Shown here: positions 7,902-47,811 of the stretch, one piece after another
How positions within the stretch are numbered: the first letter of the stretch is position 1
Layout: each line of letters opens with the position of its first letter
Assembly (NCBI GenBank): GCA_012728855.1
Contig: JAAYEH010000059.1
Coordinates: 1 to 64,000, forward strand
DNA length: 64,000 bases
Reading direction: 5' to 3'
Origin: Rhodopirellula sp.
Lineage (GTDB): Bacteria > Planctomycetota > Planctomycetia > Pirellulales > Thermoguttaceae
Notes under the pieces: generated by a model
The model's input: only the letters and a program-made list of their open reading frames with translations
Told to the model about the DNA's origin: nothing
Database searches by the model: none
Translations under genes and position numbers: made by a program

Positions 7902-8852
7902 ATGATGCGCGCAGCCGTAATTCCGAGATATGGGCCGCCCGCCGTGCTGGAAATCCGCGACGTTCCCCGCCCCGACGTGCGCCCGGGGCGGGTTCTGATC
8001 CGCGTTCGCGCCGCCGGGGTCAATCCGTTGGACTGGCGAATCCGCAGCGGTTCCCTCCGCCTGCTGTTGCCGCTGAAATTGCCATTGATTCCCGGCTACG
8101 ATGTCTCCGGCGAAGTGGCCGAGGTGGGCGAGGGAGTGACGCAGTTCCAGCCGGGCGATGAGGTGTTCGCTTTCCTCGATGCGATCCGCGGCGGCGCCTA
8201 TGCCGAATTCGTCGGCGCCTCCCCATCGGTCGTTGCGCGCAAGCCCGCCAACCTCAGCCATGAAGAGGCCGCCGCGGTGCCTCTGGCCGCTTCGACCGCG
8301 CTCTACGCCCTCCGTGACATCGCCAAGATCCACAGCCAGTCGGAGGTGCTCATCAACGGCGCCGCCGGCGGCGTCGGTTCGTTCGCGGTGCAACTGGCCA
8401 AGGCGCTGGGCGCTTGTGTGACGGGTGTTTGCGGTCCGGAGAACATCGATTTTGTCGGCCAGTTGGGGGCCGACCGTGCGCTCGACTACCACAAGACCGA
8501 CTTCACCCGCCAGCCGGAACAATACGATCTGGTGTTCGACGCGGTCTCCAAGAGTTCCTACGGGAAATGCCGGGGAGTCATGAAAACTCACGGCCACTAC
8601 GTTTCGACCGTGCCGACGCCGATGGAGTATTTCCACCAAGGCGTTACTTGGCTCTTGGGCGGACGGCGAAGTCATACCTTCCTGGTCCGCCCTCGCGGCG
8701 CCGACCTGCGGCACCTCGCGACGCTCATCGAGTCGGGCCGGCTTCGCCCGATCGTCCAGCGGGCCTACCCGCTGGACGAAGTCGCCCAAGCCCACGAGGC
8801 GAGCCAGGCAGGTCATGTCCGCGGCAAACTGGTCCTGCGGATCGGCGACTAA
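7902..8852 (+). CDS. Medium-chain NAD(P)-dependent alcohol dehydrogenase / quinone oxidoreductase family
   Basis: AAGVNPLDWRIRSG, VLINGAAGGVGSFAVQLAKALGA. Confidence 0.88.
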   Translation: MMRAAVIPRYGPPAVLEIRDVPRPDVRPGRVLIRVRAAGVNPLDWRIRSGSLRLLLPLKLPLIPGYDVSGEVAEVGEGVTQFQPGDEVFAFLDAIRGGAYAEFVGASPSVVARKPANLSHEEAAAVPLAASTALYALRDIAKIHSQSEVLINGAAGGVGSFAVQLAKALGACVTGVCGPENIDFVGQLGADRALDYHKTDFTRQPEQYDLVFDAVSKSSYGKCRGVMKTHGHYVSTVPTPMEYFHQGVTWLLGGRRSHTFLVRPRGADLRHLATLIESGRLRPIVQRAYPLDEVAQAHEASQAGHVRGKLVLRIGD

Positions 8853-8950
8853 GAGCCTATCCCAAAACCGTCGGGGACTGGCTCATTTTGCGGAGTCTTC
8901 GGAGCAGAATGTGCCTGTCCCCTTCTCCTCGAGGTTTTGGGATAGGCTCT
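8852..8950. repeat. Long hairpin element with GGGGACTGGCTC...GTGCCTGTCCCC core
   Basis: 18-bp outer inverted repeat agagcctatcccaaaacc/ggttttgggataggctct plus inner inverted repeat. Confidence 0.9.
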
Positions 8951-8973
8951 AAGCATCGGCGTCGATAACGGGG

Positions 8974-16431: not shown

Positions 16432-16615
16432 TTCGGGATCCTCCTTATGATTGCCTTGGATTACCTTGGATACGCAACTCGGTACGGTTCAAAAACGGGG
16501 AGAATACGCCCCGAAAGGAGACGCGTTCCCCGTGTTTTTCGGACATTGATCGATCGAACAAGGTTAGCGGTTTTTCAAGCGACTGTCTATATCGCGTCGG
16601 GGAAGTCTGCGAAGC

Positions 16616-23004: not shown

Positions 23005-23051
23005 CAGCAGAGTAGCCACAGAAGCCTCAAAACCTGACACGGTTCAAAAAC

Positions 23052-23117
23052 GGGGACAGGCGACTCGCCTGAGCGAGTTCTGTTCATGTTTGCGGAAGCC
23101 CGGCTCGGAGCCAGTCC
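23052..23117. repeat. Degenerate copy of GGGGACAGGC...GAGCCAGTCC element
   Basis: Shares the two core ends with 8852-8950, 46835-46934 and 47631-47811. Confidence 0.55.
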
Positions 23118-23170
23118 TCATTTCTGTTCGTATCGATGTGATCACGGTCATTATAACGGGGGAGACAACG

Positions 23171-46797: not shown

Positions 46798-46834
46798 GCG
46801 GACGGAATATCAAAGCGATGGGTGCGTCTAAACC

Positions 46835-46934
46835 GAGACTGCTGAAAAAGGGGACTGGCTCTGCAACATCTTGTACCTGTTTTCAAGCCAAACCACGAAA
46901 AGTTGCCGTGCCTGTCCCCTTTTTCAGCAGTCTC
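46835..46934. repeat. Long hairpin element with GGGGACTGGCTC...GTGCCTGTCCCC core
   Basis: 21-bp perfect arms gagactgctgaaaaaggggac / gtccccttttt-cagcagtctc. Confidence 0.9.
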
Positions 46935-47622
46935 AAACCAACGGTGTTGTCGGTGCAGTGAGCCGGCCCTGGTCCAGTTCCAGTTGCCGGCTCATCCGCA
47001 TCGCAAGCCGGACACTGTGGGTGACCACCATCAGCATCATTTGCTCGGCCTGCTGCAGTTCCAGCAGCAGTTCTGCAATCCGATTGGCGGTGGTGCGATC
47101 GAGGTTTCCGGTCGGCTCATCGGCCAACAGCAGGGCGGGCTGGTTGATCAGCGCCCGGGCAATCGCGACACGCTGCCGTTCGCCCCCGGAAAGCTCGGCC
47201 GGCCGATGGTCCAACCGGTCGCTCAGCCCAACACGGTGCAACAAGTCCTTGGCGCGTTGGATGTCTTCGGCGCGCGTCGCGCCCGAGGCGACCGTAGGAA
47301 TTAACGCGTTTTCCAGCACCGAGCACTGCGGCAGCAGGTGATGGTCCTGAAAAACGAAGCCAATCTTCTGATTGCGGAATCGCGCCAGTGCCGACTCGTC
47401 CATCTCGCCCGGATTCTCGCCACCGAGCGAAATATGCCCCGAAGAAGGCGGCTCCAAGGTACCGATGATGTGCAGCAGGGTGCTCTTTCCCGAACCGCTC
47501 GGGCCGACCACGGCAACGGCGTCGCCGCGATCGAGTTCCAGAGAGACCGCGTGGAGGACGCAAAGCGGCTGGCCTCGCGTGGGATATTCTTTCGAAACGC
47601 AGTCGACCAGAAGCTCCGGCAT
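46933..47622 (-). CDS. ABC transporter ATP-binding protein (LolD/MacB type)
   Basis: VVGPSGSGKSTLLHIIG; LSGGERQRVAIARAL; LLADEPTGNLD. Confidence 0.95.
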   Translation of the reverse strand: MPELLVDCVSKEYPTRGQPLCVLHAVSLELDRGDAVAVVGPSGSGKSTLLHIIGTLEPPSSGHISLGGENPGEMDESALARFRNQKIGFVFQDHHLLPQCSVLENALIPTVASGATRAEDIQRAKDLLHRVGLSDRLDHRPAELSGGERQRVAIARALINQPALLLADEPTGNLDRTTANRIAELLLELQQAEQMMLMVVTHSVRLAMRMSRQLELDQGRLTAPTTPLV

Positions 47623-47630
47623 GGTTCCTT

Positions 47631-47811
47631 ACTCAAAACTGTAGACGGAGTTGAAAAGCCTGCAATGGGGAAAAGTACAAATTCTACATCTTTGTCAGAA
47701 AGAACCATATACCAGGGGGCAGGCACCGAGCGGCAGGCATTTCCTCGGCAGTTCCAGGCCAAAACCACGCTCGGAGCCAGTTCCCTTTTCAACTCCGCTT
47801 ACAGTTTGAGT
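47631..47811. repeat. Larger (181 bp) inverted-arm element of the same core family
   Basis: Arms actcaaaactgtagacggagttgaaaa / ttttcaactccgcttacagtttgagt; core GGGGGCAGGCAC...GAGCCAGTTCCC. Confidence 0.75.

Follow-up and report, generated by a model that had tools for sequence, protein, structure and literature searches.

A widespread mismatched hairpin of the Y1-associated type within probable DDE-type inverted repeats in a Pirellulales genome

The hairpin elements in the 64-kb stretch of Pirellulales DNA analysed here (the window) are probably composite, non-autonomous elements in which a hairpin of the Y1 type is nested in MITEs of several DDE families. We propose that the inside of each would be a REP/TIR-like hairpin such as is found beside Y1 (HUH, IS200-like) transposase genes and spreads armless in other bacteria, and that the outside would be the terminal inverted repeat (TIR) belonging to one or another DDE transposon family, several unrelated families being represented. 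DDE transposases encoded elsewhere in the genome would cut at the arms and move the copies in trans, and cutting there would give duplications that vary by family: 3 bp in that of the element at 8852, 8 bp in family F2 and probably 5 bp in the family of the element at 46835. A sequence-only reading of the window had pointed to four elements with a common asymmetric core and self-complementary arms; all four are present and share the core (Table 1), one of them in decayed form, although the arms require a different explanation from the one offered there.

Table 1. Hairpin elements of the window with their flanking duplications, and the arm sequences of the families.
Feature	Position	Strand	Details
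TAA target-site duplication, left	8850..8852	.	From sequence; 3-bp TWA seen family-wide
F1 element, 97 bp	8853..8949	+	52 F1/F1 copies in 1.64 Mb
F1 element, arms	8853-8869 and 8933-8949		
F1 element, core halves	8873-8884 and 8911-8922		GGGGACTGGCTC and GTGCCTGTCCCC
TAA target-site duplication, right	8950..8952	.	From sequence
Decayed F2-type copy	23041..23119	+	Left arm GGTTCAAAAAC at 23041-23051; right arm lost
Decayed F2-type copy, core halves	23052-23063 and 23108-23119		3 mismatches over both
AAACC target-site duplication, left	46830..46834	.	From sequence
F6 element, 100 bp	46835..46934	-	Arms GAGACTGCTGAAAAA; core halves 46850-46861 and 46908-46919
AAACC target-site duplication, right	46935..46939	.	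From sequence
F5-type element, rearranged	47631..47811	+	Arms ACTCAAAACTGTAGACGGAGTTGAAAAG / CTTTTCAACTCCGCTTACAGTTTGAGT; core halves 47715-47726 and 47774-47785
Arm sequences by family			F1 GAGCCTATCCCAAAACC; F2 GGCATGGTTCAAAAAC; F3 GAGGCCCTAACAAAAC; F4 GAGGCTATCCGGAAAC; F5 ACTCAAACTGTAA...; F6 GAGACTGCTGAAAAA

The core has the layout GGGGAC-A-GGC-A-C, then a variable inner stem and loop, then G-A-GCC-A-GTCCCC. Its half-site GGGGACAGGCAC has 346 exact matches in the 11.3-Mb genome and the reversed control pattern has none; with up to one mismatch allowed, the window contains four matches where 0.38 are expected. The asymmetry is real and is kept. Direct counting of the 12+12 core in 1.64 Mb, with stems and the four mismatch positions left free, gives A·A at both mismatches (T·T/T·T on the opposite strand) in 98 of 102 copies, a one-base difference in the other four and a symmetric arrangement in none. 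Most of the sequence examined was picked for an exact half-site and core conservation is over-estimated there; part of the apparent invariance follows from the search itself, which required the exact core, and in the contigs and window not picked for the half-site the exact core is present in 7 of about 12 copies. A core-blind comparison of divergence in core and arms is biased by the choice of regions, and we do not count it as evidence for selection. The first position of the inner stem is paired in 92% of 188 copies from other genomes (43% when shuffled), with all four Watson-Crick types represented, and this strong covariation indicates that inner stem and arms vary around a constant mismatched core. 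A search of Rfam with the window gave no match, and the 12-mers of the core were not found in a bacterial context in the main texts of open-access papers.

Pairing of half-sites in 1.64 Mb of the genome yields 117 pairs, and most copies belong to about six discrete arm families, the arms having no locus specificity. The same family is present on both sides in 52 F1, 16 F2, 11 F3, five F4 and two F6 copies, to which the F5 group is added. The arms in the window looked unrelated because each of its elements happens to come from a different family (F1, F6, F5 in rearranged form and F2 in decayed form), so that the idea of arms differing at each locus reduces to a sampling of different families; membership of families accounts for most of the pattern of a common core with different arms. 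Self-complementarity of the arms holds for the F1 element (95% over 21 nt, with the duplicated TAA included; fold z = -8.9) and for the F5-type element (91% over 23 nt), and does not extend to the decayed F2-type copy, in which the hairpin fold is gone (z = -1.1). The fold of the F6 element has z = -10.3. A further decayed F2-like palindrome, GGTACGGTTCAAAAACGGGG...CCCCGTGTTTTTCGGAC, is present at 16470-16545 of the window and is without a core.

The arm families are accompanied by ordinary target-site duplications, and discrete families with such duplications are the outcome that the sequence-only reading had itself named as incompatible with its interpretation. The 3-bp TWA duplications of F1 are 92% identical, compared with 73% (maximum 81%) in mispaired flanks, and the 8-bp duplications of F2 are 83% identical, compared with 35% (maximum 53%). 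In the window, the left TAA of the F1 element doubles as the stop codon of the ORF at 7902-8852. For F3, F4, F5 and F6 the duplications are based on few copies: F3 and F4 have TNA-like flanks in numbers too small for significance, a second F6 copy (L090) is flanked by the 5-bp duplication ATCCA, and two of four compound F5 elements have exact 4-bp duplications. In another genome (L167) a copy with the arm GTAACCGTTCACGG has the 8-bp sequence CCCAGATT on either side. Because of the duplications, we attribute current movement in this genome to the arms, on which DDE transposases may still be acting.

The compound F5 elements are either 233 bp long with two cores or about 128 bp with one. In the longer form (L077 15911-16144; L131 5303-5536) the two core hairpins are in opposite orientation, and the shorter versions (L070, L127) look like products of recombination between them. 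The sequence TTTGTCAGAAAGAACCATATACCA precedes the core half at 47715 in the window (47690-47714) and recurs on the left side of a Y1 gene whose ends are GGGGACGCACCTCTTTGTT (L037 145-168); it appears to mark a junction at which two element types have been joined.

A search of the genome for DDE_Tnp_1 genes identifies an IS5-like PF01609 element of 910 bp (L367) with ends GGGCCTATCCCAAAAC, flanked by TAA on both sides, and the F1 arm GAGCCTATCCCAAAAC is this end with one change. A second IS5-like PF01609 element with F1-type ends is 915 bp long (L366). Only the TIR is held in common; the sequence inside the ends of L367 is unlike that of F1, and the F1 interior is not derived from the parent IS. 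Matching full-length IS elements were found for F1 only among the arm families. An ISL3-type parent for F2 was considered and rejected, the search giving one weak PF01610 match with unrelated ends. A repeat of about 170 bp with F2-type ends contains a CCCGCTTGCCGAGCGGG hairpin and no core (L064 69, L103 11523, L119 5648, and shortened in L125 15531), and is predicted to be a second MITE on F2-type ends. Since F2 arms also bound this core-less repeat, arm and core are separable, and this observation together with the F1 parent IS and the duplications identifies the arms as transposon ends. From its TIR and TWA duplication, the F1 element of the window would be classed as a MITE of the IS5-like family. 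As in IS5-family MITEs with a TWA target, F1 shares its TIR with IS5-like elements of the same genome, has a 3-bp TWA duplication and lacks coding capacity; unlike them, it has as its interior a Y1-type hairpin that is common to MITEs of other transposon families.

Beyond this genome, the paired core is present in at least seven phyla (one genome per species; at least 95 stretches). Among the matches listed are members of the Planctomycetota, Desulfobacterota-type bacteria (Geomonas, Desulfonatronospira), Firmicutes (Desulfoscipio, Diplocloster), Bacteroidota (Prevotella), Acidobacteria, Armatimonadetes and Hydrogenedentota, and several of the hosts are cultured isolates. Within its own order the distribution is patchy (24 of 297 genomes). 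There are 28 hairpin copies in G. azotofigens, 226 in G. paludis and 84 in Desulfoscipio. The core is armless in Geomonas/Citrifermentans, where complementarity of the flanks is 1.19 (1.42 when shuffled), compared with 5.97 (1.73 when shuffled) in the Pirellulales genome; F1-type cores without arms are also present in G016 and G112. In Desulfoscipio geothermicus (G300; for example C44:130494-130606 and C32:78056-78168) core hairpins form REPIN-like inverted doublets, the two inner stems of which differ, being of the CCGATTC and CTTTTTTC or CCATTTTC types. Prevotella-group cores lie in frame within genes (L277 6591-6642, L282 5057-5108, L314 3444-3495, L349 6419-6471 and L411 1500-1550), including queA and a subtilisin-like protease gene among others, and encode peptides such as GDWL...VPVP in differing reading frames. 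In an empty-site comparison at the Prevotella queA locus, homologues are present in 106 of 120 genomes and the loop concerned differs in length from species to species; the corresponding place in G305 holds a decayed form of the insert.

The association with Y1 transposases is clearest in Geomonas, where the core is both armless and Y1-associated. A 198-aa Y1 gene (confirmed as Pfam PF01797) is abutted on both sides by GGGGACAGGCACCTGGCGGAGCCAGTCCCC or a near-identical sequence in G. azotofigens (L398) and G. paludis (L384), the copies being direct rather than inverted, and a 323-aa Y1 gene (L401) is bracketed by further core copies. A second related motif, GGGGTCAGGCAC, repeats next to the Geomonas Y1 gene (L398 1101-1232; L384 1126-1232). 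A Lachnospiraceae Y1 gene has GAGCCAGTCCCC at both sides and a Prevotella Y1 gene has GGGGACAGGCAC at one. Homologues of the Geomonas protein are present in 118 of 247 Pirellulales genomes, the best at about 50% identity, and the ends of these homologues are sisters of the core (such as GAAAAGGGGACATTCTACTTTT, AAAGGGGTCAGGACTCATT or GGGGACAGGCGC) that follow the motif GGGGWSAS, the nearest being GGGGACAGGCGC in L266 and L452. A search for a Y1 enzyme that could act on the hairpins, proposed in the sequence-only reading, is thus answered in part: Y1 genes exist (20 in this genome) and the core flanks those of Geomonas, and none of the 20 genes, nor any of about 80 loci examined in Pirellulales relatives, terminates in the exact core. 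Y1 genes of this genome have other ends (for example GGGGACGCACCTCTTTGTT and ATTCCGGGGACACGAAC). L034, which has cores nearby, was considered as the driver and rejected, as its own motif is GGGGTCAGAACT. An array of four to five GTGTCCCCGGAATC units at L036 2137-2210 adjoins a Y1 gene with ATTCCGGGGACACGAAC at its other end.

The suggestion of a REP- or MITE-like element was apt on both counts, since the core behaves like a Y1-associated REP/TIR hairpin and the arms like DDE-type MITE TIRs with duplications. Among described systems the core resembles the TIRYT/TIRtron repeats (PMC3733652; subclass 2.1 in PMC6006769), which have the motif GGGGWSAS at the repeat end (PMC3733652, PMC6006769), are associated with PF01797 Y1 genes and are dispersed through the genome. 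The left half of the core contains GGGGACAG and the right half read inwards gives GGGGACTG, one base off the motif, and many Y1 genes of the order end in an A-rich GGGG(A/T)CA. In contrast to TIRYT, the core halves are imperfect complements with two conserved A·A mismatches and form a single short hairpin; the core recurs unchanged across many phyla, and its planctomycete copies are orphans within DDE-type TIRs, the Y1 genes of the genome not being flanked by the core as a long terminal inverted repeat. The core also shares with the REP/REPIN sequences of RAYTs (PMC2817692, PMC3116915) the form of short imperfect palindromes in high copy number, mostly intergenic, occurring as singles, doublets and arrays, although no GTAG/GTGG lies beside it in copies from this genome or from Geomonas, and the direct orientation of the copies at the 198-aa Geomonas Y1 gene is a further difference. 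The RAYT trait of a Y1 gene bracketed by the repeat is seen in Geomonas (L384, L398, L401), whereas it is absent from this genome. A Y1 enzyme would once have placed the core, and the nesting may have been repeated several times rather than having occurred once and been followed by exchange of arms.

A less likely alternative is that a Y1 enzyme inserts the core at the loop of pre-existing palindromes (single-stranded hairpins on the lagging strand), in which case the arms would be nothing more than the hairpin targeted, and short MITEs of the TIR-TIR form would be favoured sites. Y1/IS200 enzymes work on single-stranded hairpins (PMC6006769), which makes the centre of a TIR-TIR palindrome an attractive site. 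The core does lie at the dyad centre in every arm family, Prevotella copies have locus-specific complementary flanks of 5-8 nt that TIRs do not obviously explain, and one copy of this genome, L122, carries private arms (GATCC..ACAAAGA). However, no empty palindrome, with arms and without any remnant of the core, was found: two arm pairs that lack the core, of F1 and F2 (L106 11451 and L065 13253), retain GGG/CCCCC or GGGGTGTCCCC and appear to be hairpin deletions, and the Geomonas copies, which are those with a linked Y1 gene, are not within palindromes. We consider insertion into palindromes unlikely as a full account; it could also be the loading step of the nested-MITE reading.

We think it very unlikely that the hairpins are bidirectional transcription terminators or RNA stabilisers used by the host and selected for structure. 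Many families do have an AAAAA-GGGGAC...GTCCCC-TTTTT layout, the F1 copy of the window is between convergent genes, and copies avoid long ORFs (one of at least 250 aa spans 33% of copies, compared with 79% of random positions). But primary sequence and mismatches are conserved, target-site duplications are present, the distribution within the order is patchy, and Prevotella copies lie in frame within genes; termination may be a by-product of the elements. Rewriting of arms in place around a fixed core, by hairpin-templated synthesis or quasi-palindrome correction, is the least credible alternative, and neither hairpin-templated synthesis nor arm replacement, which the sequence-only reading suggested, is supported as a general explanation of the arms. 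Such correction should also mend the A·A mismatches, which are never repaired, and the arms group into families that have duplications and, in the case of F1, a parent IS; a small minority of chimeras with unlike left and right arms (for example L052, L098 and L120) and the similar inner segments of F2 and F3 (0.64-0.65, compared with 0.57 shuffled) on different arms could be cited for it, the chimeras showing that recombination at the core can swap arms, rarely.

On the nested-MITE reading the components are of familiar types and what is new is their combination, together with an exact core that is more widely distributed than expected. REP hairpins usually vary from species to species, whereas this one keeps its 24 bases and both mismatches across planctomycetes, Geomonas, Desulfoscipio, Prevotella, acidobacteria and others. 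As an unlikely extension, one conserved mismatched hairpin might repeatedly and independently have become the cargo of unrelated DDE ends, movable either by Y1 enzymes as single-stranded DNA or by DDE enzymes as a double-stranded MITE; such a dual drive, if true, would explain the spread of the core over many phyla. Geomonas can be cultivated and has a linked Y1 gene, and so offers a way to study which features of a mismatched hairpin are read by a Y1/RAYT protein. Nesting in several families of DDE MITEs is a case of one class of mobile element riding another, and makes the route by which short hairpins enter TIRs a testable question.
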